Part shown: positions 11,835-30,224 of the stretch, in pieces | Layout of the letters: every line of letters starts with the position of its first letter | Position numbering within the stretch: position 1 is the stretch's first letter | Assembly: GCA_018712565.1 (NCBI GenBank) | Contig: DVGU01000041.1 | Coordinates: 1-50,816 of the forward strand | Direction of reading: 5' to 3' | Source: Candidatus Faecimonas gallistercoris | Lineage (GTDB): Bacteria; Bacillota_I; Bacilli_A; RF39; UBA660 | DNA length: 50,816 nucleotides | Made by a program: the position numbers and the translations under genes | Notes under the pieces: generated by a model | Seen by the model: only the letters and a program-made list of their open reading frames with translations | Database searches by the model: none | Told to the model about the DNA's origin: nothing

Positions 11835-13037
11835 CTATTTTATTTTATATGGTTTATTAACAGTACCTTTACCACTTTTAAATAACACATTACTATTTAA
11901 CATAATAACTGCTCTAGGATACATATAACTAGATGTATTAATACTTTCAACAACTCCACCATCAACACCATAAGCTTCTTTTGTTGAATTAGCAGTAGCT
12001 GTAACTAACCACCACTTATAATCAGTAACTAAATAATTATAATTCTGACACGTTTGATTAAGAATCGTATTACAATTAGTATCAATACTTGCCATCATAT
12101 AATCACTAGCAGTAAGCAAACCAATTTTTTGACCTTCAGAAATCTCAGCACATTCAACAGAGTTATCTTTCGTAGTATCCGATGTACTTCTTTTACCAGT
12201 ACACAAATCAAAAGTAACAGTTTTACTACGATCATCATCACTTAATATAGCCTCAGACTTAAAACTAGAATTTTCATTATATTTGCTCTTATAATATTTA
12301 TCTAAAGACTCTTTAACTCGACTAGTAGAATAAGTATTAATACCAATATTATAACCAATTTGAGAATTATAACGATTATCCCAGGCTACAGAACTATAAG
12401 GTTTATCCTCTAAAATCAACATTATCTCTCCGTCTTCAGTAACCTTAACAATTCTCCATAATGACGCATCTAATTGAAGATAATTTTTAACATCCTCACC
12501 ACGATAAACATAGCTATCCCCTACTTCGTATAATCCATAACCTTCGGTTACTACCTTTTTAGTAAGAACTTCTCGTAAAGACTGTGTAACATAATCCTCC
12601 CCACAATCTAATCTTGGAGTATATAAATAATCATTTCCATTTGTTTGAACAGAAACTTTTCCAGAACAAGTAATTTCTTCACCTGTATAATCAACCATCT
12701 CTTTCATATATTCAGAAGCAACCAAAGTATCTACATCAATTTCTACTCTTTGAGTATCTGATTGAGGAAGTCTTTTAGGATGATCTGAAAAATAACTTTC
12801 AGCAGCACTAACCATAATATTTTCTATATCATCATAAGTATAATTCTTATTCATAAAAAGAGATAAAAGAAATAAAAGTAAAAATAAAACTATGGCTCCA
12901 CCTAAAATAGCTGCTCCCATCAACATCAATCTTTTTCTTAAATCTTCATTAGAACCCTTACCATTTTTTGAATTTGATTTTTTAGGTTCATTAGTATTAA
13001 TAGCATTAAAACTACCGACATTAAAATTTGTACCCAT
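11835..13037 (-). CDS. Membrane-anchored surface protein with pilin-like and G-x-GT-NPY domains
   Basis: Four hundred residues. A cytoplasmic asparagine/lysine-rich tail (1-36) leads to one membrane helix (about 37-61). An extracellular pilin-like domain follows (about 70-150), with the pattern AxxYF...LP...RVEI...L...YMK...C...V.V...Y...LDC. The rest is a larger domain opening with LWRIVKVTEDGEIML and closing with SGKGTVNKPYKIK. The same two modules occur in the 608-residue protein at 35161, and the pilin-like one also in the prepilin at 43850. It is the last gene of the block, twelve bases after virD4. I infer a surface-exposed accessory or minor subunit of the apparatus; no enzymatic motif is visible. 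Confidence 0.7.
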   Translation of the reverse strand: MGTNFNVGSFNAINTNEPKKSNSKNGKGSNEDLRKRLMLMGAAILGGAIVLFLLLFLLSLFMNKNYTYDDIENIMVSAAESYFSDHPKRLPQSDTQRVEIDVDTLVASEYMKEMVDYTGEEITCSGKVSVQTNGNDYLYTPRLDCGEDYVTQSLREVLTKKVVTEGYGLYEVGDSYVYRGEDVKNYLQLDASLWRIVKVTEDGEIMLILEDKPYSSVAWDNRYNSQIGYNIGINTYSTSRVKESLDKYYKSKYNENSSFKSEAILSDDDRSKTVTFDLCTGKRSTSDTTKDNSVECAEISEGQKIGLLTASDYMMASIDTNCNTILNQTCQNYNYLVTDYKWWLVTATANSTKEAYGVDGGVVESINTSSYMYPRAVIMLNSNVLFKSGKGTVNKPYKIK

Positions 13038-13048
13038 AAATATACCTC

Positions 13049-15502
13049 CTAATTATCGAAGAAATCATCAAAGAATTCATCATCATCCTCATCTTCATCA
13101 TCTAATACTAAATTATTCAAAACAGGAGTTACTACTGCTTCTTTTGCATCTTCACCTGATTTTTCCTGTTGTACATCTTGTGGAACAAAAGGTTTCTTAG
13201 AAGTATTTTGAACAACCTTTTTAGTTTCTTCTTTAGGTGACTCTTTAACTTCTGTTTTTTTCTTCTTCTCATTATTATCTTTTGATTCCTTTTCATTCTT
13301 TGCTGCATTTTGTTTTTCTTCTTCTTCAAGTTCTGCTATTTTAGCATCTATTTTACGAACCAACTCATCAACATCAAATAAATTTCCCTCATCTTTAGAA
13401 GCAGAAGATGATAAAGATGGATTAGTAGATGGTGCTGAGGCCGGAGCTTGCGTTGGAGTTGGAGCCACTCCAGAAGGTACTCCACCACCAAAAGGATTTA
13501 CTCCATTAGGAATAGGAGAATTCATACTTGATGGCATAGCATTTGGAGTAGTATTTCTAGGTTGATTACTCATCATACCACTTGGCAAACTATTAGGATT
13601 AGGAACATTACCCATAGATGGTGCAAACGGATTACCTTGAGGCATAGGATTAGGACGAGGAGCACCACCCATCATAGCATTAGGATTCGCACCAAATGGT
13701 GACCTACCACCCATCGGAGGCATTCCACCACCAAACATAGCATTAGGATTACTACCTCCTCCATTTTTATCAGCTGCATTCATCATTTCTAATAACTTTT
13801 TCTTCTTTTGCGTTTTAACGAATTCCTTAATATCAAAAGTATGAACCGGTTGTTTCTCTCGAACTGGATAATCAGCCTGTGGATACTTACGTCCCCAATC
13901 AAGTTTAAAATATGGAGTAAATTTTGTTTTAAAAGGCTGTTTTCTCATACGTAAAATAATAACTTCAAACTGTTTCATACGTTGCAAATCAGATACCGTA
14001 ACAAGAGGTGTAGAAGCAGTCTTTTCATCTTTTTTAGACTTAACCTCACCACACATCTTAGATATTTCTTCTAACGCCTTTAACTCCGTTGTAATCAAAT
14101 AAATAATATTACCGCAGTTACCACGAATAGTTTCTGCATTTTCTTTACCATAAACTTGATCAAGCTGAGCAAAATTCTGAATAATCATAGTAAAACGAAT
14201 ACGTCTAGAACGAGCTGCTGTAATCATAGTAGTAACATCCTTTAAAGGTGGCATATTAGCAAACTCATCAAGTAAGAAATTAGTACGAACAGGAAGACTT
14301 CCACCATGTTCTTGTGCAACAGCAATTAAGGTTTCATATATTTGTTTTAGTAAAATTGTAACAAGAGAATGATACGTTTTCTTTTCATCTTGAATTACAA
14401 TAAATACTGCAGTAGGTCTTTGACCAATACTTGCTAAATCAATATCACTATGAGATAACATCTCACTTAAATTATCACGAGAGGCAAACAATTTAACTTT
14501 CTGTTTAAATACAGATAAAATACTTCCCTTAGTTTCTGTTGGTGCCATAATAGTACTAGAAGCATTAATGGCTGCTGCACTAGAAGGATCTTTCGCATTA
14601 AAGTATTCTTTAATATAAGTACTACCACCAAACTTTTCCTCTCCAACAGTAGTAGCTAAAGAAATACTATTGATATTAATTTCCTCTTCCTTTGCATCTT
14701 CAAACAAACCTAACGCAACACCTGAAAAATAGTCTGCAGAAGTCTTTTCCCAGAAAGGATCTGCATTTTGATTCGATTCATCATACAAAATATTTAAAGC
14801 CAAGTCATCCAAAAGCTCAATTGCTTTATCCTGATTACCCGATTTATATATCTGATATGGTAAAGACATAGGATTCCAAGCATTACCATTTTGAGGATCA
14901 CGGAAATTCAAAAGCAAAATTTGATAACCACGAGCTCGAAGCATATTACTTGTCTTTTCATAAATTTCACCCTTAGGGTCAGTAATAATCATAGATTCCT
15001 TAGCTTTTGCCAAACTATGTACAAGAGGTAAAATAACAGTTTGAGTTTTACCTGAACCAGTAGCACCAATAACCAAAGAATGATACTCTCCATTATCTAC
15101 CCACATTTCATTCTCATTAAGAATTAAAGGAACCCCGGCAGCACTTGAATTTTCTTGCCTAATCTCCACACGCTCTAACTCTGGTTTAATTTCTTTTTCT
15201 TTAGCCCATCTAGAATATCCTTTATCCTTTTTATCTGTAGTAATACCAAATCCCTTTTCACGCTCAAAAAAATACGAACTAACACTAACTAATAATCCTC
15301 CTAAAGCAAGAAAATAAAAAGTTAACGTAGCAGCAATATATTTAGGGCCGAAAGCAGGAAATGGATTAAGTCCATATAAATATCCTTCTGTTGCAAAAGA
15401 AGATAAATTTAAAACTCCAATACATACAATATATAATAAAAAGATAGCAAATAATACAAACATTAAAATATCTTCTGGATCTGCTCTAAACTTAAATTTC
15501 AT
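13049..15502 (-). CDS. VirD4/TraG-type type IV coupling protein with long disordered tail
   Basis: VirD4 ATPases recruit substrates to type IV secretion channels at the inner membrane. Two N-terminal membrane helices (about residues 10-35 and 48-72) precede Walker A GATGSGKTQT (near 144-153) and Walker B NFLLDEFANM (near 407). After the ATPase (ending near 580) comes a Pro/Asn/Gly/Met-rich stretch with repeated PNAM units (about 590-700). A charged Lys/Glu region follows, and then an extremely acidic tail (DDEDEDDDEFFDDFFDN). That extension of over 200 residues is unusual and may be a substrate docking platform. The ATG at 15502 follows AGGGAG and is preferred to a TTG upstream. No relaxase gene accompanies it. 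Confidence 0.93.
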   Translation of the reverse strand: MKFKFRADPEDILMFVLFAIFLLYIVCIGVLNLSSFATEGYLYGLNPFPAFGPKYIAATLTFYFLALGGLLVSVSSYFFEREKGFGITTDKKDKGYSRWAKEKEIKPELERVEIRQENSSAAGVPLILNENEMWVDNGEYHSLVIGATGSGKTQTVILPLVHSLAKAKESMIITDPKGEIYEKTSNMLRARGYQILLLNFRDPQNGNAWNPMSLPYQIYKSGNQDKAIELLDDLALNILYDESNQNADPFWEKTSADYFSGVALGLFEDAKEEEININSISLATTVGEEKFGGSTYIKEYFNAKDPSSAAAINASSTIMAPTETKGSILSVFKQKVKLFASRDNLSEMLSHSDIDLASIGQRPTAVFIVIQDEKKTYHSLVTILLKQIYETLIAVAQEHGGSLPVRTNFLLDEFANMPPLKDVTTMITAARSRRIRFTMIIQNFAQLDQVYGKENAETIRGNCGNIIYLITTELKALEEISKMCGEVKSKKDEKTASTPLVTVSDLQRMKQFEVIILRMRKQPFKTKFTPYFKLDWGRKYPQADYPVREKQPVHTFDIKEFVKTQKKKKLLEMMNAADKNGGGSNPNAMFGGGMPPMGGRSPFGANPNAMMGGAPRPNPMPQGNPFAPSMGNVPNPNSLPSGMMSNQPRNTTPNAMPSSMNSPIPNGVNPFGGGVPSGVAPTPTQAPASAPSTNPSLSSSASKDEGNLFDVDELVRKIDAKIAELEEEEKQNAAKNEKESKDNNEKKKKTEVKESPKEETKKVVQNTSKKPFVPQDVQQEKSGEDAKEAVVTPVLNNLVLDDEDEDDDEFFDDFFDN

Positions 15503-15557
15503 ATGATTACTCCCTTTCGCCAAATATTATATCATCAAAATTAAATATCGTCATTAA

Positions 15558-16340
15558 TTATTGATTAGAAATTTCAATTTTAAATGAATCATCTTGATAT
15601 TCATATAACATAGTAATTGGTGTTTGATTACTATATCTAGAACACATAAGAATAATTTCATAATTATTATCATTATCTACATCTGCTACAGTATAAATAT
15701 TAGGTTTACAACCATTAGTACCATCATTAACATCCATATCTTCATAAAGTACATTAATATTATTATTATCTACCATAAAAACAAAAGAAAAATATTTATC
15801 TGGAAAGAAATCTGTTGCAAATACATTACTAATTACATAAAAATTTTCTAAAACACCATCCTTATCAAAATCAAAAGAAGAAACAGTTGCTAAAGTATGA
15901 GGAGAATTAGGATCTAAACCATAATTTTTCAACACTTCTTGCACATAAGTAAAGTCTGTAATATCTACAGTATTAAAACGAAGAATATCCATTTCAAAAT
16001 CTGCTTTATATGCAAATAAATTTCCCTGATAAGAAACAGCATCTCTATTACTATCAAATAAATACCATTGTTCATCTAACCAAACATAATAATCACCAAA
16101 ATATTGATTATCAACATAAGTATGAAATTCTTGCCAATCAAAAGAAGAAAGCATCTCTTGACTAGAAATATTCATCCACTCCCTAGAAGAATAATTCCAA
16201 ACAGCAGAATCTCCTACTAGCAAAGTTGTAGATGCCTTTCTCTCTTTCGCTTCATCAACACCAAAAACTAAATACATTCCCGCACAGTAAATAACCAATA
16301 AAACAATAATTACAATATATTTAAACTTTCCCTTTTTCAT
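15558..16340 (-). CDS. Membrane-anchored protein with FG-GAP/EF-hand-like calcium loops
   Basis: Two hundred and sixty residues: an uncleaved-signal-type membrane helix (about 8-27), then an extracellular domain. Two acidic loops, FDFDKDGVLENF (about 155-166) and ADVDNDNNYEIIL (about 230-242), have the DxDxDGxxE layout of calcium-binding FG-GAP/VCBS-type repeats. It sits between the wall-remodelling gene and virD4, with only 11 bases to the former and a good GGAGAG site. It is probably a structural, outward-facing part of the secretion apparatus. The family is not recognised, and function beyond possible calcium binding is unknown. Confidence 0.65.
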   Translation of the reverse strand: MKKGKFKYIVIIVLLVIYCAGMYLVFGVDEAKERKASTTLLVGDSAVWNYSSREWMNISSQEMLSSFDWQEFHTYVDNQYFGDYYVWLDEQWYLFDSNRDAVSYQGNLFAYKADFEMDILRFNTVDITDFTYVQEVLKNYGLDPNSPHTLATVSSFDFDKDGVLENFYVISNVFATDFFPDKYFSFVFMVDNNNINVLYEDMDVNDGTNGCKPNIYTVADVDNDNNYEIILMCSRYSNQTPITMLYEYQDDSFKIEISNQ

Positions 16341-16351
16341 ACTCTTCTCTC

Positions 16352-18739
16352 CTAAGACGTTACTCTAAAATAAGCAACGGTACTAGTATTAGACCAATTA
16401 TACCTATTCCACATATCAGTAGCCTGACTACCTGGATCCATCATAGTAACTTTATCTCCATCAACAGAATCAACAGCAACCCAGTGTTCTCCAGTATTAC
16501 CTTTAACTTCTACAACTACATAATATCCTTGATTAACTAAATTTCGAATCTGTTGTAATTTTTGTGTTTTTGACTGTCCGGCAACAGATATTTTTTGTAC
16601 AAATTTGAAATTAGGAGCAGCATTACTAACCGCACTCCAATTTAATAACGCACCAGAAAATCCCCCAGTTTGATTTAAACGCTTGACAAAAGAACCCGGA
16701 TTGAAATCACCATCAACCGTTGTTTCTACTTGACTTTTAGCAATCAACATAGAAATAGAAGTAGCCAAACATCCAACACCAGCTATTGTCTTATTTGTAT
16801 TACCAATCGTAATAGACCCCCAAGCAGGATCACTCTGTTTCCATCCAGAATAAGGACCTGTACTACCAGTACTACTACATCCACTACCAGATCCAGTATT
16901 ACAACTCATTTTCTGAATATCACTAGAATCCCCATATACTTGTAAAAGAATTTGCTTATAATTTAGCCCTCGATTAGCAAGATTTTTAAATTTATCTTGA
17001 ATACTCTGTGCATAATCAGTGTAATAAATATTACCTTGTTCATTAACCAAAACCTCACCCATGGTTTCATTGGCAAGGGTTCGCATTTTATGATCTGCAG
17101 GCAAAGGATCTTTAAACTTAACTGCTTGGTCAACCCCACTACGAACAGTACCATATTGTGTTCCATCATTCATAGCAGAACATCCTAAATTTGGATTACA
17201 ATATACTTGGTCAGCAACACAAGAAGATAACTGTAATATCCATTGACCATTTTCTTGTTCCAACTTTTTACCATTAGCATTTCCCATAGCAAGAGGTCGT
17301 GCTAATGAAAAACTCCTTGCCGCAATCATTTGTGCTTTAATAGCTTCATCTGGAGCATCTGGACCAATTTCCTGATAAGCAACACCTAAAACATACTGTT
17401 CAAATGGAACTAACTCTTCACCAGATAACGGAGTATTCCAATTACCTGAGCCATATTTACCACCACATTCCATCAACCGTACTTGTAAATCGCTAATTGT
17501 CATAGCCTGAGCAACATTTCCTCGCCTAGAGATATAAAAACCTTTAATCTCATAAACACAAGATCCTAAACTTGCACAATTAGAAGCAGTTGATCCAATC
17601 AAACTATAATAGCTATCATAATAATCAAATACATCATCAGCCCAGGCTTCATAAATGGAATCATCCTTTCCAGGAATATACTTAGGAAAAATATCATTTA
17701 CTAAATTTTCTTTAAATGCATCCTCACTAAAAGAATTTCCCTCAAACATAGCATTAGCAATTTCCCTAATAACTCCAGTTGTCATGTCATCATAGGAAAG
17801 TTTAGCACCATGTTGATTTAAAACACTAAATACAGCAGAAATATAAACTGCATTAAAAGATTTACCTGTTGCTTGAAAACTATTTTTAACATCTTTAACT
17901 CGGTCAAAAAAAGCCTGTGCTTTTGGATCAGATGAAGAATAATCAACTCCACCAGTTTCTCCTCCGGTTGCTGCACTAACTCCAAAGGCATCATCATAAC
18001 CAGAGAAAATGCCACCAGCTTGAGCAGCAGAAACAATAAACAAGATTAAAGCAAAAGAACCAACAAAAAAAATAAGGCCTATTTTAACTGCAGGATTTTT
18101 TAAAATTGTTCCAGATAGCTCAAAAGAACCAGATTTCCCAGATCCATTAGAGTCATCAGACTTATCCGAATCATTATTTAAAAAATTAGGCTTAGAAGGT
18201 TTAAATTTATCTAAAAGTCCTGAAGAACCTTCTGCTCCTTCTGCGCCTTTCTGAGCTGCATCAGCACCATTGGCTACATTTTTCCCAGCTTGTGCCGCTC
18301 CACCAGCAGCATTCTGTGGATTTGCACTAGCAATATCAACTGCCTTATCGGCAGCATCTAATACTTTTTTATCATCTAGTTTTTTCATCGTTTTACCCAT
18401 ACCGGGAATACGATTTAATATTTCTGCACCTTTATTTAAAACTTTATCTCCTGCTTTTGTCTTACTGACTAAATCAACTGCTTTTCCAGCAGCAGGAGAA
18501 CCCAAGGCAGTCGCAGCACCTTTAGCTCCTGTTTTTAGAGCCTTTTTCGTTGCATTATTCTCTTGTACTTTTTTATCAGCATGATTAGCTTGATATGGTG
18601 AAGATTGCTTAGTACCAGTAGATTGAGTACTACTACCAACATTACCATTACTAGCATTATTTCCATTATTACCATGGTTATTATCATTATTATGAACAAC
18701 ACGGTTATCATGTAAATTATTACCTTTTAATACTGACAC
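16352..18739 (-). CDS. Wall-remodelling protein of the T4SS: SpoIID domain plus C39-like peptidase
   Basis: Seven hundred and ninety-five residues. Residues 1-213 are cytoplasmic, Asn-rich then Ala/Gly/Lys-rich. One membrane helix (about 217-240) exports the rest. A region at about 435-610 matches the SpoIID/LytB peptidoglycan lytic transglycosylase family, with FEQYVLGVAYQEIG carrying the expected catalytic glutamate near 454. The last 145 residues are a papain-like C39 domain: cysteine in GVGCLATS (near 654), histidine in GEHWVAVD (near 751), aspartate in DPGS. It takes the place of the VirB1-type hydrolase of Gram-positive T4SS. SpoIID plus C39 is not the usual pairing (lysozyme-like or NlpC/P60). 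The start is GTG after GGTGGTG. Confidence 0.85.
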   Translation of the reverse strand: MSVLKGNNLHDNRVVHNNDNNHGNNGNNASNGNVGSSTQSTGTKQSSPYQANHADKKVQENNATKKALKTGAKGAATALGSPAAGKAVDLVSKTKAGDKVLNKGAEILNRIPGMGKTMKKLDDKKVLDAADKAVDIASANPQNAAGGAAQAGKNVANGADAAQKGAEGAEGSSGLLDKFKPSKPNFLNNDSDKSDDSNGSGKSGSFELSGTILKNPAVKIGLIFFVGSFALILFIVSAAQAGGIFSGYDDAFGVSAATGGETGGVDYSSSDPKAQAFFDRVKDVKNSFQATGKSFNAVYISAVFSVLNQHGAKLSYDDMTTGVIREIANAMFEGNSFSEDAFKENLVNDIFPKYIPGKDDSIYEAWADDVFDYYDSYYSLIGSTASNCASLGSCVYEIKGFYISRRGNVAQAMTISDLQVRLMECGGKYGSGNWNTPLSGEELVPFEQYVLGVAYQEIGPDAPDEAIKAQMIAARSFSLARPLAMGNANGKKLEQENGQWILQLSSCVADQVYCNPNLGCSAMNDGTQYGTVRSGVDQAVKFKDPLPADHKMRTLANETMGEVLVNEQGNIYYTDYAQSIQDKFKNLANRGLNYKQILLQVYGDSSDIQKMSCNTGSGSGCSSTGSTGPYSGWKQSDPAWGSITIGNTNKTIAGVGCLATSISMLIAKSQVETTVDGDFNPGSFVKRLNQTGGFSGALLNWSAVSNAAPNFKFVQKISVAGQSKTQKLQQIRNLVNQGYYVVVEVKGNTGEHWVAVDSVDGDKVTMMDPGSQATDMWNRYNWSNTSTVAYFRVTS

Positions 18740-18765
18740 TAAACATCACCACCTAAACTCAACTA

Positions 18766-20556
18766 CTAAAAACCACCACCAGAACCAAAGGAATCTAATT
18801 CTTCCTTAGTTACTGCAACATTAATTCTCATACGTCTATTTCCACAAACAAATAACGCTTCACCTTGAGAATACCGTTTAATACTCTCCTTTTCACTATC
18901 ATTTAAATCAATTAACAAACCTAAATCTTCAACTGCTTGTTTCTTTAATCCCATAACTAAATAATAAGAAGCATTATCAAAAATCGCTTTACCATGCATA
19001 ATAACACCTGGATCAGCAAAATCACTTGGTTGTTGTGTAATGATAATAGTTCCCGTATTATATTTACGAGCACGTCTTTGTACTTGAGCCAAGAATTCTG
19101 CTCCCAATCTATTATTAGAACCAAGTAATACATGTGCTTCATCAACTAACAAAATAGTATCCACATTAAAATCCAAACATAATCCCCAGGCATACTTTAA
19201 TACATTAAAGAATAAAGCATCTCTAATATTAGAATCAGTATTCATTAACTCTTTAATATTAAATACCATAAAGTCACTATCACGACTAATAGTTGTATGA
19301 CCATCAAAATAAAAGCGTAACTCCTTAGTAATAGGACGAATCTTTAATTCCAATCGCTCCATAACATCACGTTCTTTAGTCTGCTCAGTCATAGACATAA
19401 GTCGACCCTTAATAGTAGCATAAACATCGGAAAAAGTCGGATAATCATTGGAAGTAAATCTCGAAAAATCAGAATTAAAATCAATTCCAAAACGTTTATA
19501 AGTATCTTGTGCAACATCACTAAACATTGTCAAAACATCTTCTTCAATCGTTGGATCATAATAAGTTAAAAATGCTTTTAAAAACTGTAAAGTACGTGTC
19601 AAAACAGTATAGCCAAGTCCTTGTTTAATTTCTTCTTCATCAGCATCAATAACAATTTCCAAAGGATTAATTAAACCAAATTCTCCACCTTTACCAATAT
19701 CAATAGTATCTCCTCCATAAGTTTGAGTAATCTCACGTAACTCATCTTCTGGATCAATCGCAACAATCTGACATCCATTTCTAATATGCGTACGTAACAT
19801 AACCTTCGCAGCCGTAGACTTACCAGATCCAGATGTACCAAGAATAATCATATTAGCATTATTACGGTTATTTTCTTTACGAATTTTATATAGAAATTGA
19901 TTAAACAAAATAACTCCTCCAGAAAAATCAACCCCTAATAAAGTAGATAATCCTGGATCTTTAATACTATCAAATATAAAAGGATACATAGCCGCAATTG
20001 TAACAGATGGAATCGGAGTACCAATTCTTTGTTCAATATCTTGTGGTGGGAAAATTGGCAAAATACTCTTTAACACTTTCTCTTGTTCAAAACGAAGAGA
20101 AATAGCTTTTAACTCCATCGCATCTAAATAGTTTTTAACATTAACCTTCTTTAACTCTAACTCTTCTTTTGTATCAGCAGTAATCATAATGTGCATCTGA
20201 AAATCAAAAATACGTGCCTGACTACCTGCAAGCATAGAAGTAAAATATTCCAAACTTTCAGCATCTTGACGATATCTCTCACGCATAGTCTGATCTCTTT
20301 CATGTTGATACTTTTCTTTCAAATCAGCAACTTGCCTATTTAACATTTTAGACATCGTCTGGAAAGGTACAGGAATATGTTTTATAACAACTTTAATACC
20401 TGGCATATTAGTAAGTGATGATAAATATCCTGGAGAAATATATTTCGGATACGATACAACTGTCATAATAGTTGCATACTTATCACTAATAAAAAAATCA
20501 CTAGGGTTAAAACTAAGCCCTTTAGGTGCCAATTGGCTTCTTAAACTTGTACTCAT
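18766..20556 (-). CDS. VirB4/TraE-type T4SS ATPase, catalytic part
   Basis: VirB4 is the universal energising ATPase of type IV secretion, on the inner membrane. This 596-residue protein holds Walker A LGTSGSGKSTAAK (near 240-252) and Walker B ILLVDEAHVLLG (near 465). It also has the arginine-finger-rich region QVQRRARKYNTG and the typical GTIIITQQPSDF sensor stretch. Its N-terminal end lacks the first part of the usual VirB4. That part appears to be the separate upstream protein at 20553-21104, whose stop codon overlaps this start (ATGA). The two lengths sum to 779 residues, normal for one VirB4. Confidence 0.92.
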   Translation of the reverse strand: MSTSLRSQLAPKGLSFNPSDFFISDKYATIMTVVSYPKYISPGYLSSLTNMPGIKVVIKHIPVPFQTMSKMLNRQVADLKEKYQHERDQTMRERYRQDAESLEYFTSMLAGSQARIFDFQMHIMITADTKEELELKKVNVKNYLDAMELKAISLRFEQEKVLKSILPIFPPQDIEQRIGTPIPSVTIAAMYPFIFDSIKDPGLSTLLGVDFSGGVILFNQFLYKIRKENNRNNANMIILGTSGSGKSTAAKVMLRTHIRNGCQIVAIDPEDELREITQTYGGDTIDIGKGGEFGLINPLEIVIDADEEEIKQGLGYTVLTRTLQFLKAFLTYYDPTIEEDVLTMFSDVAQDTYKRFGIDFNSDFSRFTSNDYPTFSDVYATIKGRLMSMTEQTKERDVMERLELKIRPITKELRFYFDGHTTISRDSDFMVFNIKELMNTDSNIRDALFFNVLKYAWGLCLDFNVDTILLVDEAHVLLGSNNRLGAEFLAQVQRRARKYNTGTIIITQQPSDFADPGVIMHGKAIFDNASYYLVMGLKKQAVEDLGLLIDLNDSEKESIKRYSQGEALFVCGNRRMRINVAVTKEELDSFGSGGGF

Positions 20557-21104
20557 ACAGGCATCACCGTCCCAAACTCAGTAGTTCTTCCTCCATTTAA
20601 GAAATTATCAAGTATAACTCTTAAATCGTCATTAGACGTTTGTGAAGCATTAAGCCCACAACTAGCTAAACCATTAATCAACATACGAACTTTCTTCTGT
20701 ACAAGATCAGGATCTTTTTCTTTAAATAAGAAATAATACTCTGTATCAACAATATTATTATTAATAAAAGTATTACCCTTATTAATATCTTGCATAATTA
20801 ATTTACGAATAGCTGGTGATTGTGTTTCATTATATAAAAGCTGTAACTGTGCCATATATACAGATATATCAACTGGTCTATCTGCAACAACTAACCAAAA
20901 TTCAAAATCAATCATATTATAAAAGTTTTTTAAACTTATTAACACATTATCCTGAGATTGCATATCTAATATAAAAATATTACGTGGAGAAATTTTAACT
21001 CCAGATATTTTTAAATTATCATAAGTTATAATCATCCCATTTTGAATAGATTTAACAGGCAACCAATTTTCTGTATAATTACTTCCTACGATTTTCTTTT
21101 TCAT
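20553..21104 (-). CDS. VirB4 N-terminal domain encoded as a separate protein
   Basis: One hundred and eighty-three residues, no membrane helix. Composition and position fit the N-terminal domain of Gram-positive VirB4 proteins (WLPVKSIQNGMIITYDN...VKISPRNIFILDMQ). There is no P-loop. It overlaps the catalytic VirB4 gene by four bases and the PrgI gene by 26 bases, so all three are translationally coupled. The two parts are in different frames but both open cleanly with good initiation sites, so this looks like a functional split, not a recent frameshift. Alternatively it is a distinct TraC-like partner of VirB4. Confidence 0.7.
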   Translation of the reverse strand: MKKKIVGSNYTENWLPVKSIQNGMIITYDNLKISGVKISPRNIFILDMQSQDNVLISLKNFYNMIDFEFWLVVADRPVDISVYMAQLQLLYNETQSPAIRKLIMQDINKGNTFINNNIVDTEYYFLFKEKDPDLVQKKVRMLINGLASCGLNASQTSNDDLRVILDNFLNGGRTTEFGTVMPV

Positions 21105-21396
21105 TCATGAAACACCAACCTTTCCAATGATATGTCTGAACAGAAGTAAAGAATTCATACATCTCTACAATAACATTCAAAATATTATGGTAATAAGGTA
21201 CCGGAGTAACTAAAAATCCACAAATAACAGCAGGACTAACTACCAAAATAGTTACCCAGGTATTAGTAAGTGGCAAAAACGCCAACAAAATAACTGTAAC
21301 TAATACTCCGCATAAAAACAAAACTAAATCAGAAGGCCTAAATAACCCTAAAATCAATTGTCCTCTCTTCGTATTAGCAGGTATTAAATAATTCAC
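21079..21396 (-). CDS. PrgI-family (VirB3-like) inner-membrane T4SS subunit
   Basis: One hundred and five residues with two membrane helices (about 25-45 and 48-68) and the hallmark end YHWKGW (about 89-94) of PrgI proteins. The PrgI/VirB3 subunit sits beside VirB4 in nearly all Gram-positive T4SS, as here. It starts with IPANTKRGQLILGLF, also typical of the family. Confidence 0.88.
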   Translation of the reverse strand: MNYLIPANTKRGQLILGLFRPSDLVLFLCGVLVTVILLAFLPLTNTWVTILVVSPAVICGFLVTPVPYYHNILNVIVEMYEFFTSVQTYHWKGWCFMNEKENRRK

Positions 21397-21429
21397 TAAA
21401 TATCACACTCTCTTTCATTCCATCAATTA

Positions 21430-23520
21430 TCACCCAGTATTAGGAGTATCAGTATCATTATTAGAATCTCCATGAATATCATTCAAATCTGTATTAGAAT
21501 ATACACTAGGATCCCAACGATTATTTGTTCTTTCATTACCATTAACATGATGAGGTTGATCCCAGCTTTCATAAGAGCCAGCAATACGATCTGATATACG
21601 TTGATGCGCTGAATAGCGATTGTTTCTTGATTGTAAATCATCTCTTCTATTACCACCAACTCTTTCCCTTAAACTACGATGATGTTCTTCGGCAAAATTA
21701 GGTGTAATACGATGAGAATCTGCAAACTGTTTAGCATCTTCATAATGTGTTTTAGCCATTCCATATCTTTTCTTAGCATCCTGTACATTTCTCATTAATG
21801 CCTGACGTGCATTTTCTTTGCTTCCATACTGTTGAACTAGATTATCAACTTCGTTTTGATCCATCTGACCTTTAACAAAGCGATCATATCTATCCTGTTC
21901 CTCACCAAGATTTCTCTCATGATCAAACATTGCCTGCTTTGCCATATCCAATCCACGAGAAGTAACTCCATAAAGTTTTCTAGCACGATTAATTCCAGCA
22001 GATCTCATAAGTCTATCATTTAAATTATTTATGACACCACCCTTAGCCTTAGGATCGCCTGTTTTTATTTGAGCAGCTAAATCAGAACCAGTTTGCCAAG
22101 CAGGTGGTGCTTGTTTTCCTTCTGCAGCAGCCTGGCTGGCAGTATTCATATTACTAACCATAGCAGCTCCAGCACCAGCAAGGCCACCACCACCAACAAG
22201 TGCAGCAGCTCCACCAAGCATTCCACTAAGACCAATATTATTACCTCCGCCTTTTACACCTAATACATCTTTAATAAATTTAGGTGCCATTCTAGCAAAA
22301 ATCAACAATCCTAACATAATAAAGATAAAAGACATAATTCCTACCATTCCAGTAGCTTCATTAATAACAACACCGTTCGCAATCATATCTTGAATTAAAA
22401 ATATAGCAAAATAAACTATAGCTAATCTTAAGAATAAATCCAAATAAGTCGATGTCAAAGCTTTGACCCAGGAAGAAAACATTCCACCATCTTGACTAGA
22501 CTTAGGTTCAATATAACTAATAACAGGTATAGGAGCTAGTAATCTCAAAATAGCAAGCTTAATTGATCTTACCGCAATATCAACAGTAAATCCAACTAAA
22601 ATAAACAAAAATATAGCACCGATAATTAGAGACCCGACCCATTCAAACGCAAAAACATATCCTTCATTTCCAACAAATATACCAAAAAATCCACCAACAA
22701 CGGGAAGCTTAGTAACAAGATTACCGGCTTTTTCTCCCCAGGAGTCACCGATATCGCAATCCATAGTAACCAAACTACTACTTAATAAAGTACTGGGATC
22801 AACATCTAATTGTTTATATGTATTTATAGCTTGTTCAGCATCAGAACTTAAATCATCTCCACAATACCAGTTTTGTTGATTTGTCTCTTTATCATCTTTT
22901 CTAGCATCGGAAGGCAACAAATTAATTCGTAAAAATGATTTTAAAATTGTCGCTGTAAAAATACGAGAAGACTTCTCCAACTTTTCGTTTTGTTTATCTG
23001 CCTCCGTAAGACCATCTTGTGCTTCGGAATCAGATACAGTAGTTGCTGAATCCGTAGTACCAAGAATTAATCTTCCTAAAGTATTATTAGAAAGAATCCT
23101 ATCTTGCAATGAATAAAGCGTACCAAATAAAAGCCCATTATTATTAATGTATTTCTCAAAAGAATTAGCATTTGCTGCATCTGGTACATTAATAGGGACT
23201 AACACAGTAAGTAAAGCAAGCGAAATAATAACCCTAGTAATAACACTCCCAAAACCATCTTTAGGATTAGTGAATTTTTCTGGATCCATAATACCTTGCA
23301 AAATACTAATAGCAAGTTTGAAAACCATAAATACTCCTATAATAAGTTGTACACGACCATAAAAATTCTTAATCGTTTCACTTTCAAATAATTGAGCACT
23401 TGAAACATTAAAGAAAATTTGATACATAATACCAAGTAAAAAATAAATAATACGATTTATAGCAGCACCTAAACTTCGAAATACATCATTTATTGTATTA
23501 GCATCACTATTATCAGTCAT
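21430..23520 (-). CDS. VirB6/TrbL-type polytopic T4SS channel protein
   Basis: Six hundred and ninety-six residues with about six to seven membrane helices: three in the first 112 residues, an external loop (about 115-265) with a Cys pair, then three more between about 270 and 415. A hydrophobic Gly/Ala stretch follows (about 430-460). A hydrophilic Arg/Asn/Gln/Asp-rich cytoplasmic tail of over 200 residues ends the protein. This layout and the position between pilin genes and PrgI/VirB4 identify the VirB6-type channel. The RBS is GGTTGGTGAT. Confidence 0.85.
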   Translation of the reverse strand: MTDNSDANTINDVFRSLGAAINRIIYFLLGIMYQIFFNVSSAQLFESETIKNFYGRVQLIIGVFMVFKLAISILQGIMDPEKFTNPKDGFGSVITRVIISLALLTVLVPINVPDAANANSFEKYINNNGLLFGTLYSLQDRILSNNTLGRLILGTTDSATTVSDSEAQDGLTEADKQNEKLEKSSRIFTATILKSFLRINLLPSDARKDDKETNQQNWYCGDDLSSDAEQAINTYKQLDVDPSTLLSSSLVTMDCDIGDSWGEKAGNLVTKLPVVGGFFGIFVGNEGYVFAFEWVGSLIIGAIFLFILVGFTVDIAVRSIKLAILRLLAPIPVISYIEPKSSQDGGMFSSWVKALTSTYLDLFLRLAIVYFAIFLIQDMIANGVVINEATGMVGIMSFIFIMLGLLIFARMAPKFIKDVLGVKGGGNNIGLSGMLGGAAALVGGGGLAGAGAAMVSNMNTASQAAAEGKQAPPAWQTGSDLAAQIKTGDPKAKGGVINNLNDRLMRSAGINRARKLYGVTSRGLDMAKQAMFDHERNLGEEQDRYDRFVKGQMDQNEVDNLVQQYGSKENARQALMRNVQDAKKRYGMAKTHYEDAKQFADSHRITPNFAEEHHRSLRERVGGNRRDDLQSRNNRYSAHQRISDRIAGSYESWDQPHHVNGNERTNNRWDPSVYSNTDLNDIHGDSNNDTDTPNTG

Positions 23521-23535
23521 TTATATCACCAACCT

Positions 23536-24744
23536 TTATTCCAAACCACAAATTTGATCCGTAGTTATTCCAAAAATATTTAAAATTACACTAACTAAAG
23601 TAGGTATTAAAAATAAAGCAACCGCCAAAATCAAACGAATCATTAATTTTGATTCTGCTTTTTTCATATTTTCATCATCACTAGCCATAATAGCTTTAGC
23701 AAAATCTAAACTACTTAAAATAGCAACTAAAATAGGTCCAATTATTTTAGCATAATTTAGAATTTGTTGTAGTAGCCAAGCAACAGAATCTTCATCCTTC
23801 GTACTACCTAAAATAGAATCACAATCATCAATTTTATCGTAAGACTTTAAATCATCTCGTAAATCATCAATATCAATTGAATCATTAGAACTTCCACTAC
23901 CAGAACTACTACCATTGCTAGGATCACCATAGCCAGCATTATAGTAACTAGAACCAAATGCTTGTCCATCACGAGTACTAAAATCATCTTTTGAACAATA
24001 TTTTAAAGCAGTAGACAACTCATAAGAATACCCATCTTTAGATTTAGTTACACACCGATAAATAGTACTTGGACAAGTGGCATTACTAGATGAAAATACA
24101 GAATCAAGAAGCGAATCGTTAACTGTAAAAGAAAAACTCTCATTATCTACTGTACCAGTAATAGCATTCGTAACAGGTACATAGCCATCTCCATTAATAG
24201 ACCACTCTTTAGTTCCATCAGAATAAATTCTAAAATATGGAAAAACATAACTTTTACGATTATAAAATCCTATACTAGATCCAGCACAAGTAGATACAAT
24301 CTTTTTAGTCTTTACACCTGAACTTTTAGCACTTTTAGATAATTTAATAGACTTTGCTGTAAGATTATAACAACTTCCCGAGCAAGAATCTTTATATACA
24401 GGATTAGGATATACAGTAACACCCAAATCATTTTCTTGTACATATATAGATGGACAAGTAACAGTAGAACTATTAATTCTAGCAATATTATAAAATGTAA
24501 CAGCAAATTTATCACTATGATACCATGTCCTACTATCTCCCGAATAAGAATTACCATCTGTAAACGGAAGACCAATACTACCATCAGAATATATATCATA
24601 ACTTAATTTAATTTGATTCCCTTTTTCATTGGAAAACTCATAATTACAAGTAGCAACTTCTTTTCCTAAAGCCTTTGTATTATATGGAACAAAAAAGAAC
24701 AAACCAAAAATAAATATAAGTAAAAAAACTTTAATATATTTCAT
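23536..24744 (-). CDS. Exported protein with C-terminal VirB2-like two-helix domain
   Basis: About 402 residues. A signal/anchor helix (about 6-25) starts a Cys- and Ser-rich extracellular domain (about 30-290). An acidic linker leads to a pilin-like hairpin at the end: helix IIGPILVAILSSLDFAKAIM, loop SDDENMKKAESK, helix LILAVALFLIPTLVSVILNI, then a cysteine. The hairpin matches the free-standing 117-residue protein next to it in order and spacing. The ATG at 24744 follows GGAGTGGTGG; a longer in-frame start is unlikely. It could be a tip adhesin of the pilus or a minor subunit. Confidence 0.7.
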   Translation of the reverse strand: MKYIKVFLLIFIFGLFFFVPYNTKALGKEVATCNYEFSNEKGNQIKLSYDIYSDGSIGLPFTDGNSYSGDSRTWYHSDKFAVTFYNIARINSSTVTCPSIYVQENDLGVTVYPNPVYKDSCSGSCYNLTAKSIKLSKSAKSSGVKTKKIVSTCAGSSIGFYNRKSYVFPYFRIYSDGTKEWSINGDGYVPVTNAITGTVDNESFSFTVNDSLLDSVFSSSNATCPSTIYRCVTKSKDGYSYELSTALKYCSKDDFSTRDGQAFGSSYYNAGYGDPSNGSSSGSGSSNDSIDIDDLRDDLKSYDKIDDCDSILGSTKDEDSVAWLLQQILNYAKIIGPILVAILSSLDFAKAIMASDDENMKKAESKLMIRLILAVALFLIPTLVSVILNIFGITTDQICGLE

Positions 24745-24765
24745 TGCCACCACTCCATATAAACA

Positions 24766-24771
24766 ATTATA
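24766..24771 (-). promoter_or_regulatory. Possible -10 element for the gene at 23536
   Basis: A perfect TATAAT lies about 22 bases before the ATG and after the pilin terminator, so transcription may restart here. No convincing -35 is seen at 17 bases. Read-through past the terminator may contribute. Confidence 0.3.
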
Positions 24772-24790
24772 CAGAATAAGTATATCAAAA

Positions 24791-24820
24791 TTAAAAAAAA
24801 ATAGCAATTATTTTGCTATC
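24791..24820 (-). terminator. Terminator after the VirB2-like pilin gene
   Basis: Minus strand: ATAGCAA / TTGCTAT stem (24801-24807, 24813-24819) with a five-base loop, then nine T. It is strong and lies inside the block, insulating the pilin transcript. Confidence 0.85.
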
Positions 24821-24836
24821 TAAATTTATAAACTCA

Positions 24837-25190
24837 TTAAATACTATTCCAACAGTCAGCCCAACTAGTAGTATTAGCTTCACCATCGCCACCACTAGCT
24901 CCAGTACCTACTAAAGACATTATTAAAGTTACTAAAGTAGTAATAAAGAAAATAGCAACAGCATAAATACATCTTTTAATCAAACGACTTTGAGCTTCTT
25001 TTACTTCTTTTTCATCACTAGAAATAACGGCTTTACCTAAATCAATAGTTCCAAATACAATTAATAAAATCGGAATACCAATTTGAACAATAGGAAATAC
25101 ACCCTTTTTAATAATTCTAACGATAGGACTTAACCCACCACAATTATCGTTAACAACTCCAACATCACCAATTTGAAATAAATCTAACAT
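24837..25190 (-). CDS. VirB2-like T4SS pilin
   Basis: One hundred and seventeen residues made of two membrane helices (about 30-53 and 68-92) joined by a short polar loop, SSDEKEVKEAQSR. One cysteine precedes the hairpin (NDNCGG) and one follows it (WADCWNSI). This is the layout of TrbC/VirB2-type pilins of Gram-positive T4SS. It has its own promoter with a perfect -35, an excellent AAGGAGAGG site and a strong terminator, as expected for an abundant subunit. No cleavable signal peptide is evident. It is separated from TadZ by 58 bases. Confidence 0.8.
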   Translation of the reverse strand: MLDLFQIGDVGVVNDNCGGLSPIVRIIKKGVFPIVQIGIPILLIVFGTIDLGKAVISSDEKEVKEAQSRLIKRCIYAVAIFFITTLVTLIMSLVGTGASGGDGEANTTSWADCWNSI

Positions 25191-25217
25191 ACATACCTCT
25201 CCTTCAATATCAAATAT

Positions 25218-25246
25218 ATATTATCTTAAAAAAAATAGTTTGTCAA
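25218..25246 (-). promoter_or_regulatory. Sigma-A promoter of the VirB2-like pilin
   Basis: Minus strand: TTGACA (25241-25246, perfect), 17-base spacer, TAATAT (25218-25223). It lies between tadZ and the pilin gene, so the pilin can be expressed apart from the upstream genes. Confidence 0.6.
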
Positions 25247-25248
25247 TA

Positions 25249-26229
25249 TTACCTACGAAATAAACCAAATATTTTCCCAGATTCACGTTTTTCTGTCTTT
25301 TTAGGAATTAACTCCAATTTAGATAAAAAATCATCAAAAATAGGATTTCTTTTTCTTTCATCTAACGGAGGTATATTGTAAAAAATCCTCGTTCTAGCTT
25401 CATATTCGAAATCAGGAACATCTTTGCTAGTTAACATGCTTTTATTCAAAATAATTTTTTTTCTCTGTAAACTAGAAAAAATATTACGATCTCTTTTCAT
25501 CAATTTATTCAATTTAATAACAGATGGTTCCAATAAGTATAAAACATCACTACAAGCTGAATCATCTGGACAATCATTCAAATCAACTAATATAACAGAA
25601 GCTCCTGCATATTTAGTTAAATAACTATGTAATTGATCACTAGTTATCGAAATCATATTTTTATCCCCAAAATATTGAAAATCATTCTTATTTAATTCTA
25701 AAGCAATAATCGTATCCCCCAAATGTGCTTTTAATTCCTTTTTTAAAATATAAATAAAAGTGGTAGCTCCGGCATGTTCAGTAACATTTCGAATACCAAT
25801 AACCTTTGAACCATTTTCAATTTTTTGCACAAAAGTATTAGATACATCATTTAACTGTTGAATATGTGCAACCTCTTTATATGAATTAGGATGTTCTAAT
25901 AAATATTTTACTCCATCTACATTAGTTGTAAAATTATAAATTCCCATAGAAACTAACTTAGATAAAAAACTAGAGGTACAAACATCCGTTCCCTCTGGTA
26001 AAAAGAACACAATCTTTTCAACATCCAATCCCATAGCAATAGTCTGGAAACTTTTAATATTATGAAAATCTCTAATAGCAGTAACATCTAAAATCATCTT
26101 ATTATAAAAGAAATTCTTAAACATCTCCACTAACTCACTCGCATCATATTCCCCAGATATACTCTTGATAACATCAATATCTAATCCTGATAAAACATTT
26201 CGCTGTACATTACTAACTATAACATTCAT
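25249..26229 (-). CDS. TadZ/CpaE-like pilus localisation ATPase with atypical P-loop
   Basis: About 326 residues. The first 130 form a receiver-like domain (VIVSNVQ...KMILDVTAIRD...VEKIVFFLPEG); the rest is a MinD-type ATPase domain. TadZ places Tad pilus machines in the cell. The Walker A region reads NVTEHAGATTF instead of KGGxGKTT, so the signature lysines are lost while GATT remains, as in several TadZ/CpaE proteins. ATP turnover may be weak. The ATG at 26229 follows ATAGGGTG; a GTG upstream is less likely. Confidence 0.72.
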   Translation of the reverse strand: MNVIVSNVQRNVLSGLDIDVIKSISGEYDASELVEMFKNFFYNKMILDVTAIRDFHNIKSFQTIAMGLDVEKIVFFLPEGTDVCTSSFLSKLVSMGIYNFTTNVDGVKYLLEHPNSYKEVAHIQQLNDVSNTFVQKIENGSKVIGIRNVTEHAGATTFIYILKKELKAHLGDTIIALELNKNDFQYFGDKNMISITSDQLHSYLTKYAGASVILVDLNDCPDDSACSDVLYLLEPSVIKLNKLMKRDRNIFSSLQRKKIILNKSMLTSKDVPDFEYEARTRIFYNIPPLDERKRNPIFDDFLSKLELIPKKTEKRESGKIFGLFRR

Positions 26230-26244
26230 AAAAGTCACCCTATC

Positions 26245-26700
26245 CTAATTAAACGGCGTAATCAACTTTGTATTACCAGAAATTTGAAAAATCCTTAATC
26301 CAGGCATTATTTTATTAATAATTGGAATATCAATATTAATCTGTGTAACTATCCTGTAATATACTTGTCCATTATTTTCTTCAACAGAATTAGATCCCTT
26401 TTTAGTAGATACATCAAACTTTTTATAACAATATCCTTCATGACAAGTATATCCATCATTAGTCAAATCAAAGTCCGGTGCACTATATCCAATCTGTCGA
26501 ATATAATTAGAAATTTTTTGAGCACAAGCACTACCTTCATTATCACAATTTCCTTCATACTGTTCTATAGTTGTAATAATGTAGTTCTTGACACGAAATG
26601 CTTTTGTATAATTAACATTAAATGCTAAGTATCCACATACCAAAACCAAAAATACAACTATCATTGATAAATTGACAATTCCTCCAAAAGCATCCCGCAT
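26245..26700 (-). CDS. TadE-like minor pseudopilin
   Basis: One hundred and fifty-one residues: a short N-terminus ending in a glycine pair, one hydrophobic helix (about 8-30), then an extracellular domain with four to five cysteines (about 50-90) and a beta-rich end. This is the outline of TadE/TadF pseudopilins of Tad systems. It sits between the pilin and TadZ, with a GGTGGTG site. Exact subfamily is uncertain. Confidence 0.65.
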   Translation of the reverse strand: MRDAFGGIVNLSMIVVFLVLVCGYLAFNVNYTKAFRVKNYIITTIEQYEGNCDNEGSACAQKISNYIRQIGYSAPDFDLTNDGYTCHEGYCYKKFDVSTKKGSNSVEENNGQVYYRIVTQINIDIPIINKIMPGLRIFQISGNTKLITPFN

Positions 26701-26715
26701 CTTCTACACCACCTT

Positions 26716-26895
26716 TTATTTATTATGATCAATTACAATATAAACACCAGTTGTACCATCACTTGAAACGTTTTGCCATTGTTTATTAATTGCAGATTGA
26801 ATATTAGGCCACATTAACCAGAAAAATCCAATAATTGCTGCAATGGCAATCAAAGTAATAACAGTTAAGTTTAATTCTCCTGTTGCTGCTTTCAT
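26716..26895 (-). CDS. Small Tad-type (Flp-like) major pilin, 59 residues
   Basis: The gene starts at the ATG at 26895 after AAAGGATGTG and ends at TAA (26716-26718). The product begins MKAATGELNLTVITLIAIAA, followed by IIGFFWLMWPNIQ and a short polar tail. Thus a six-residue leader ending in glycine, a glutamate right after it, one long hydrophobic helix and a tiny C-terminus: the plan of Flp/Tad pilins, though without the usual EY motif. It has its own near-consensus promoter and lies between tadC and the TadE-like gene, where a pilin is expected. Confidence 0.78.
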   Translation of the reverse strand: MKAATGELNLTVITLIAIAAIIGFFWLMWPNIQSAINKQWQNVSSDGTTGVYIVIDHNK

Positions 26896-26940
26896 TTACA
26901 CACACATCCTTTCGCTATTGTATATATGATATACATTATT

Positions 26941-26969
26941 ATTATAACAATTTAATCAAAAATTAACAA
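26941..26969 (-). promoter_or_regulatory. Sigma-A promoter of the small Tad pilin
   Basis: Minus strand: TTGTTA (26964-26969), 17-base spacer, TATAAT (26941-26946, perfect). It lies in the 90-base gap after tadC and gives a leader of about 40 bases. Confidence 0.65.
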
Positions 26970-26985
26970 TATCTTTTCAAATACT

Positions 26986-27771
26986 TTACATGTTAAACAT
27001 CATCATCATAGAAATCAAAATAATAATCATCGTCCCCGCACCAGTAACAACAAGCATAACCATAGTCTGACTTTCCATATGATTTAGTCGCTCTTTATAC
27101 TTTGTTTCACGTGCTTTATTTTGTAAATTAGAAACAGTCCTAGAAAACATCATCAAACGTTCCTGTTTTCTCTCTTGAGAACCAAGTCCCAAACGATATA
27201 ATAAACGCATCATACGCATAGAATCTCTAACTGGATACGTATTAGCAAACTCCATATATGGATCAATCGTAGAATCTCCAGAATTAATTCTTTCAATAAG
27301 CTTACGAAGACCTGGTTTAAAAATATCAGGAGCATCATCTATAGACTTACCTAAAGCAACAGGGACAGTATAGTGTTGAATTAAAATCTCCAAACTCTTT
27401 AAATAGTATGGCAACATTACATCAATATCATGCAAATGGGCCTTATAAAAAGATTTTAAATTCATATATGGAACTTTAAATATTAAAGCTGCCACCACAA
27501 CACAAAATACAACATTTAGAAAAGATAACTGATTTAAGAAAATAAACAAAAATATTGCAGAAACGATAATAGCATAAAATATTCTCTTTCTAAATAATTG
27601 GTTAGGATCTACATCTTCACCATATCTTGCATAAACTAAAAAATTATAATCTTCTTCTCTTAAAATATCAAAATACTTTTCATTATCAGCAATAAACTTA
27701 TTCTTATCTATAGTATTATTATAAATCAGAATAAATATAATAATTGCTCCAACAACAACGACCTCTACCAT
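26986..27771 (-). CDS. TadC-like platform protein
   Basis: Two hundred and sixty-one residues of the type II secretion F family: an N-terminal membrane helix, a pair near 75-105, a cytoplasmic helical domain (LEILIQHYTVPVALGKSIDDA near 125-145), and a last helix at the C-terminus (MLVVTGAGTMIIILISMMMMF). With TadB it forms the inner-membrane platform that the CpaF ATPase drives. Its start codon overlaps the tadB stop (TAATG), so the two are made together. Confidence 0.82.
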   Translation of the reverse strand: MVEVVVVGAIIIFILIYNNTIDKNKFIADNEKYFDILREEDYNFLVYARYGEDVDPNQLFRKRIFYAIIVSAIFLFIFLNQLSFLNVVFCVVVAALIFKVPYMNLKSFYKAHLHDIDVMLPYYLKSLEILIQHYTVPVALGKSIDDAPDIFKPGLRKLIERINSGDSTIDPYMEFANTYPVRDSMRMMRLLYRLGLGSQERKQERLMMFSRTVSNLQNKARETKYKERLNHMESQTMVMLVVTGAGTMIIILISMMMMFNM

Positions 27772-28682: not shown

Positions 28683-28688
28683 TCCTTT

Positions 28689-30194: not shown

Positions 30195-30224
30195 GCGACC
30201 AACTCCTTTTTACTCTTAATAATA

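Follow-up and report, generated by a model that had tools for sequence, protein, structure and literature searches.

In the gut bacterium Candidatus Faecimonas gallistercoris, the gene directly after virB4 in a chromosomal T4SS locus encodes a single membrane protein that joins a SpoIID-type lytic transglycosylase domain to a C39/papain-like cysteine peptidase domain. We consider it probable (roughly 0.72) that this wall enzyme is the VirB1-like wall cutter of an order-wide chromosomal T4SS, in which SpoIID would act as the glycanase and C39 as the peptide cutter. The DNA analysed, hereafter the window, is a stretch of 50,816 nucleotides (contig DVGU01000041.1, positions 1 to 50,816).

The wall-enzyme gene and its locus

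The wall-enzyme gene lies on the minus strand; the plus strand of the same interval contains many stops, and a possible ribosome site (AGGTGG) stands upstream of the GTG start. The first-pass annotation had placed this gene in a T4SS as its wall enzyme, a reading borne out by the VirB4, VirD4, PrgI-like, TrbL and pilin-like neighbours and by a position immediately after virB4 and before virD4. The genes of the locus discussed here are as follows.

13049 to 15523, minus strand: VirD4-type coupling protein (NF045973, 1.5e-89, above cut-off)
15558 to 16340, minus strand: conserved neighbour of ~260 amino acids between the wall enzyme and VirD4, recognised by synteny
16352 to 18739, minus strand: T4SS wall-enzyme gene, 795 amino acids, GTG start, 27 nt downstream of virB4
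18766 to 20556, minus strand: VirB4-type ATPase, 596 amino acids (NF045975, 4.2e-103)
20553 to 21104, minus strand: separate ORF for the N-terminal part of VirB4 (NF045975 positions 101-276), called TrsD-like by analogy with PMC12102498
21079 to 21396, minus strand: PrgI/VirB3-like protein (weak PrgI match, 0.044)
21430 to 23520, minus strand: TrbL/VirB6-like membrane protein (PF19597, 8.7e-7)

VirB4 is split in the window (18766-21396) into a PrgI-like protein, a TrsD-like N-terminal piece and the 596-aa ATPase, which jointly match one 894-aa mycoplasma ICE VirB4 model; the split VirB4 of the order resembles the TrsD arrangement in pGO1 and Patescibacteria. Upstream of VirB4 come the VirB4-N-like, PrgI-like, TrbL and pilin-like genes. 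Beyond these, within positions 11835-31031, the T4SS genes adjoin genes of a Tad-type pilus, namely the Tad-type (T2SSE) ATPase and RcpC, together with one for a sortase. The ~260-aa neighbour, regularly found directly after the wall enzyme in relatives, matched no Pfam family. It has one N-terminal transmembrane segment and Asp-rich DxDxDG-like motifs (DFDKDGVLE, DVDNDNNYE) like those of calcium-binding repeats.

Across this uncultured Bacilli order, virB4 was found at E ≤ 1e-20 in 264 of 288 genomes. Of 97 genomes searched with a Tad ATPase query, 89 gave a match, in some cases no more than a weak and probably paralogous one; in many genomes the Tad ATPase shares a contig with virB4, about 10 kb away. 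Relaxases occurred in just 26 of the 97 genomes (21 above cut-off), and conjugation is therefore unlikely to be the main job of this T4SS, which is a core chromosomal system and not a passing element. A mobile-element reading of the locus was rejected as the main explanation on the strength of the virB4 distribution and of searches of plasmids and phages, which returned no match. The combined T4SS-Tad locus is nearly universal in the order, where most genomes carry no relaxase. Outside the order, 20 matches were obtained among 395 genomes of the class, all in the own family, and the named relatives are gut 'uncultured Bacilli' MAGs.

Architecture of the wall enzyme

From its N terminus the protein runs through a head rich in A, K, N and G, one transmembrane segment, a helical domain X, a compact SpoIID domain and the C39/papain-like domain. 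The parts preceding the C39 domain are listed here.

18095 to 18739, minus strand: N-terminal head, residues 1-215, Ala/Lys/Asn/Gly-rich by composition and predicted to be cytoplasmic
18011 to 18094, minus strand: single transmembrane segment, residues about 216-243, with the hydropathy maximum at residues 217-238
17570 to 17947, minus strand: all-helical domain X, residues 265-390 (AlphaFold2 pLDDT 86.9)
16904 to 17497, minus strand: SpoIID-type lytic transglycosylase domain, residues 415-612 (PF08486, 1.2e-9; structure matches 5i1t, 9h68 and 4rwr)

The head had been described as Ala/Gly-rich. Ala (14%) and Gly (12%) are indeed abundant; Lys and Asn (13% each) are equally so. Part of it is recognisable in 42 of 131 proteins encoded at the corresponding position after virB4. 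That both enzymatic domains sit on one membrane protein, as also claimed at first, agrees with the one transmembrane segment found by hydropathy at about residues 216-240; the predicted topology would put the head inside and the remainder outside. The protein had no match in PHROGs.

For domain X, a profile search found no solved relatives, and the best structural match (Z 4.9) was not significant. X may be a degenerate muramidase, but its best structural matches, which include GH23 chitinase 3w6c (Z 4.9) and CwlT-like 4fdy (Z 3.9), lie below significance. PF13702, a lysozyme-like domain that could serve for comparison, occurs in just 1 of 97 genomes of the order.

The AlphaFold2 model spans residues 265-795, was built with 32 relatives and has a mean pLDDT of 85.8; at a pTM of 0.50 it does not fix the relative arrangement of the domains. 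Plain Foldseek E-values were weak (best 0.016), as can happen with a multidomain query, so our fold assignments draw on sequence and Z-scores.

The SpoIID domain

Sequence and fold both identify the middle region as SpoIID. Pfam PF08486 matched residues 443-539 (E = 1.2e-9; 39.1 bits against a cut-off of 23), and a profile built from 32 relatives matched PDB 4rwr (E = 5e-10) and 5i1t (E = 7e-8). Model positions 151-348 (residues 415-612) aligned with C. difficile SpoIID 5i1t at Z 14.3 (rmsd 2.8, 156 residues), with SleC 9h68 at Z 13.1 over 165 residues and with B. anthracis SpoIID 4rwr at Z 11.0. Two sites within the domain bear on its function.

17369 to 17371, minus strand: codon of Glu457, the predicted SpoIID catalytic acid, aligned with solved SpoIIDs
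17180 to 17200, minus strand: conserved C514-x5-C520 pair, each Cys present in 51 of 58 domains

Glu457 is the Glu of YQEIG and aligns with that of VASEMN / AGEMSS in the solved SpoIIDs 4rwr/5i1t, which, with the matches above, upholds the original SpoIID call down to this glutamate. The position holds Glu in 55 of 58 T4SS SpoIID domains. The other three (L010 in G007, L016 in G154 and L103 in G032) carry R, S or Q there, in some order, and retain the C39 Cys and His. The zinc ligands of C. difficile SpoIID include C140 and C146, spaced as C514 and C520 are (PMC6221140); because its two His ligands have no counterpart at matching spacings in the T4SS SpoIID domain, the Cys pair may be either a disulfide or a metal site.

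The domain is compact and lacks part of canonical SpoIID, with about 143 residues from the Glu to the C-terminal helix against 235 in canonical SpoIID. Its scores stayed below both NCBIfam cut-offs, at 37 against 83 bits for SpoIID_LytB and 30.1 against 234.75 bits for TIGR02870 (spore_II_D, the sporulation SpoIID equivalog, a whole-protein score); the wall enzyme is not the engulfment SpoIID itself. What it has in common with the SpoIID / SpoIID-LytB family is the fold (as in 5i1t) and the catalytic Glu position, whereas its place in a T4SS, its transmembrane segment, domain X and C39, its compactness and its NCBIfam scores set it apart. SleC (9h68), the C. difficile germination lytic transglycosylase, has a similar SpoIID-like domain but is a spore cortex enzyme without C39.

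The first-pass annotation had further suggested that a spore-engulfment enzyme was recruited to secretion, which the analysis did not support in that form. SpoIID here is compact and about as close to SleC as to SpoIID, it is one of many alternating modules at this position, and separate SpoIID-family proteins are present in most genomes of the order. The T4SS domain may descend from the SpoIID of engulfment, from a SleC-like protein or from a different branch of SpoIID. SpoIIP was found in 14 of 14 genomes checked; in genome G000, an assembly 89% complete, the T4SS copy is the only SpoIID match.

Free-standing SpoIID-family proteins of ~355 aa occur at loci from the window's genus (L184, L185, L186) and from near genera (L175, L178, L188, L189). 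At these loci they have lost the catalytic Glu (for example, ALATNMVP against AGEMP) and part of the GHGVGMSQ motif, with SpoIIP kept, and they may be the sporulation orthologue. Other genera have an intact SpoIID beside a SpoIIQ-like gene (L168). The SpoIID-like proteins of ~450 aa at L187, L190 and L191 have a motif of the VASSEIYPDWP type and stand nearer to the segment of the germination enzyme SleC.

The C39 domain

The C-terminal domain and its predicted active-site residues are the following.

16355 to 16891, minus strand: C39/papain-like cysteine peptidase domain, residues 617-795 (relatives match PF13529; structure Z about 10-12 to C39 peptidases and PeiR)
16835 to 16837, minus strand: Gln635, predicted oxyanion-hole residue, in 95% of 68 C39 domains
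16769 to 16771, minus strand: Cys657, predicted nucleophile, in 100% of 68, at the N-terminus of a helix in the model
16484 to 16486, minus strand: His752, predicted catalytic His, in 100% of 68
16436 to 16438, minus strand: Asp768, predicted third catalytic residue, in 95% of 68

On the C39 side, the wall enzyme alone matched in Pfam only DUF3335 ('C39 like', E = 0.054, sub-threshold) and not PF13529; relatives with an aligned C-terminal domain pass PF13529 (Peptidase_C39_2), down to about 1e-11. Model positions 353-531 aligned with PeiR 8z4n at Z 11.7, with the C39 peptidases PCAT1 and ComA at Z 9.6-10.7 and with C39-like 3erv at Z 9.8, and the predicted fold of this domain is that of C39. 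The catalytic residues stand in the Gln-Cys-His-Asp/Asn order of C39 peptidases. In the model, Cys657 lies at the start of a helix and His752 at the start of a strand, with Asp768 after the strand that comes next, which is the papain order; judged only from residue order and secondary structure, the three would be placed together. The motifs from which a C39 domain had originally been proposed (GVGC, EHW, DPG) contain exactly these three residues, and the PF13529 matches of relatives and model Z-scores of about 10 agree with that proposal. Structure prediction, put forward at the time as a check that could refute the assignments, gave a SpoIID-like middle region and showed clustering of the catalytic residues only as order and secondary structure.

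Papain/C39 folds are found in other cell-wall enzymes: PeiR is a C39-like wall peptidase (PMC6189367), and the N5 domain of mycobacteriophage endolysins is C39-type by HHpred (PMC3314691). These differ from the wall enzyme in being phage or archaeal-virus lysins without a T4SS link, and the substrate of PeiR is pseudomurein.

Alternating modules downstream of virB4

We fetched the virB4-downstream regions and obtained 131 distinct proteins from this slot (129 complete), whose domains were assigned with profiles built here and seeded from Pfam-annotated members. The slot gene mostly begins 15-100 nt after virB4. In this sample, which is enriched in relatives of the wall enzyme and whose frequencies are not population estimates, 99 of 129 complete proteins combine a glycan cutter (SpoIID, lysozyme-like, glucosaminidase) with a peptide cutter (C39, M23, CHAP/NlpC, VanY, amidase). 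The rest have a peptide cutter only (24), a glycan cutter only (2) or neither (4); some of these absences may reflect domains that escaped detection, and in a few regions the first ORF may be a gene other than that of the slot. The architectures include SpoIID+C39 (44), SpoIID+CHAP/NlpC (15), M23+lysozyme-like (8) and SpoIID+M23 (6), besides triple forms such as SpoIID+M23+C39 and further combinations, among them SpoIID+VanY and glucosaminidase with either CHAP or C39.

On a VirB4 tree of 112 tips, the peptide-cutter class changed at least 32 times (shuffled mean 47), the glycan cutter at least 12 times (15) and the whole architecture at least 52 times (76). The modules are inherited, yet with high turnover: architecture differs in 70 of 144 pairs with VirB4 identity of at least 88%, and L095 (M23) and L097 (glucosaminidase+CHAP) have VirB4 proteins 96% identical. 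This pattern suggests a tool-holder role for the slot, in which varying cutters would open a way across the wall.

A sequence comparison within a separate conjugative-element family provides the strongest evidence that C39 may take the role of a wall peptidase or amidase. At eight loci of the order there is an additional VirB4 of ICE type (CD1110 family, E = 3e-275 in L048), and the ~547-aa protein encoded after it shares 37% identity over its residues 4-374 (2e-64) with a Monoglobus protein. The Monoglobus protein also adjoins a CD1110 VirB4 and ends in CHAP (459-544, 2.5e-15), in place of which the 547-aa protein has a C39 domain 46% identical to that of the window. Its replacement of CHAP and M23 suggests that this type of C39 cuts the wall.

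A two-step cutting model and its alternatives

In the model that we favour, the head would stay inside, the transmembrane segment would anchor the enzyme and the outer part would hold both cutters. C39, as a peptide or amide cutter, would open cross-links or strip stem peptides; SpoIID, as a lytic transglycosylase, would break the glycan strand; and such local cutting would make room for the channel or pilus of the T4SS. C39 would most likely act before SpoIID, which would amount to the two-step SpoIIP-SpoIID reaction on one chain, because C. difficile SpoIID showed no activity until SpoIIP had removed peptides (PMC6221140). If this dependence holds for the T4SS SpoIID, a peptide-stripping partner would be required, and C39 would be that partner. 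An amidase activity of C39 is somewhat favoured. M23 and VanY are normally endo- or carboxypeptidases, so the bond cut may vary among slot proteins. Here, we infer the topology, the two activities, their order, the bond specificity and whose wall is cut.

The VirB1-like reading gains from the fact that C39 takes the place held in relatives by M23, CHAP/NlpC, VanY or amidase. Against it weigh the 24 of 129 slot proteins without a detected glycan cutter, the 3 of 58 SpoIIDs that lack the Glu yet have C39, the compactness of SpoIID and the score of the query C39 below the Pfam cut-off. C39 may also not be simply equivalent to M23 or CHAP, as it occurs in addition to one of them in 8 of 131 slot proteins and twice in 2. 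Such coexistence would suit a wall enzyme whose sole wall cutter is SpoIID, with C39 as a maturation or processing protease acting on the enzyme itself or on T4SS proteins or pilins. Classical C39 peptidases process double-glycine leaders (ABC exporters), and PCAT1 and ComA are among the structure matches. However, C39 replaces CHAP in the homologous ICE protein, and it pairs with lysozyme-like or glucosaminidase domains in the peptide-cutter position; we regard a processing role as unlikely.

That lytic modules turn over rapidly next to a secretion ATPase that is itself conserved, and that the relaxase is mostly absent, could instead reflect an antibacterial effector, with a constant head and swappable lytic C-terminal domains, exported to cut neighbours' walls. 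Tse1/Tae1 amidase effectors do appear among the structural matches, with weak scores. Export of this kind is quite improbable: a membrane anchor follows the head, the gene is fixed beside virB4 as in known VirB1-like enzymes, and no immunity gene was identified, leaving the conserved ~260-aa neighbour out of account. That both domains have degenerated and now act solely in wall binding or as a scaffold, as the three Glu-less copies and the compact SpoIID might suggest, is very hard to reconcile with catalytic residues kept in 55 of 58 SpoIID and nearly all 68 C39 domains across great divergence.

Relation to known systems and significance

Gram-positive VirB1-like enzymes combine an SLT/lysozyme-like domain with CHAP or NlpC/P60, to which PrgK adds LytM; the wall enzyme has SpoIID plus C39 instead. 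We place it as working like the VirB1-type family with unrelated domains and do not class it as a homologous member. TraG (pIP501), PrgK (pCF10) and CwlT/Orf14 (Tn916 type) are likewise membrane-anchored, encoded in a T4SS locus and equipped with one glycan and one peptide cutter (see PMC12102498). A further parallel comes from Saccharibacteria, where epibiotic growth requires the peptidase and lysozyme genes that immediately follow virB4 (PMC12102498). Like the window, Ca. S. epibionticum, a small-genome bacterium, has wall enzymes directly after virB4 and a conserved chromosomal T4SS; unlike the window, its enzymes are separate homologues, and SpoIID or C39 is not reported for them (PMC12102498).

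Our literature search found no paper linking SpoIID to T4SS wall enzymes, and one paper notes SpoIID in a few 'polyvalent proteins' that phages and conjugative elements encode (PMC5512222). As far as this search shows, a T4SS wall enzyme with SpoIID and C39 as its pair of cutters is undescribed. For this branch of C39, a wall activity (amidase or endopeptidase) is predicted. A broader and rather doubtful proposal is that the gene after virB4 serves as a cassette of rapidly exchanged wall cutters, belonging to a conserved chromosomal T4SS-Tad machine for contact with other cells, be it epibiotic, competitive or for uptake, used by almost all members of the order, with modules that would track the wall chemistry of a partner or prey. 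In a large uncultured gut lineage with a nearly universal T4SS and a relaxase mostly absent from the genome, the wall-enzyme slot of one secretion system can thus take up a wide range of unrelated cutters for glycan and peptide, with hardly any change in the ATPase.
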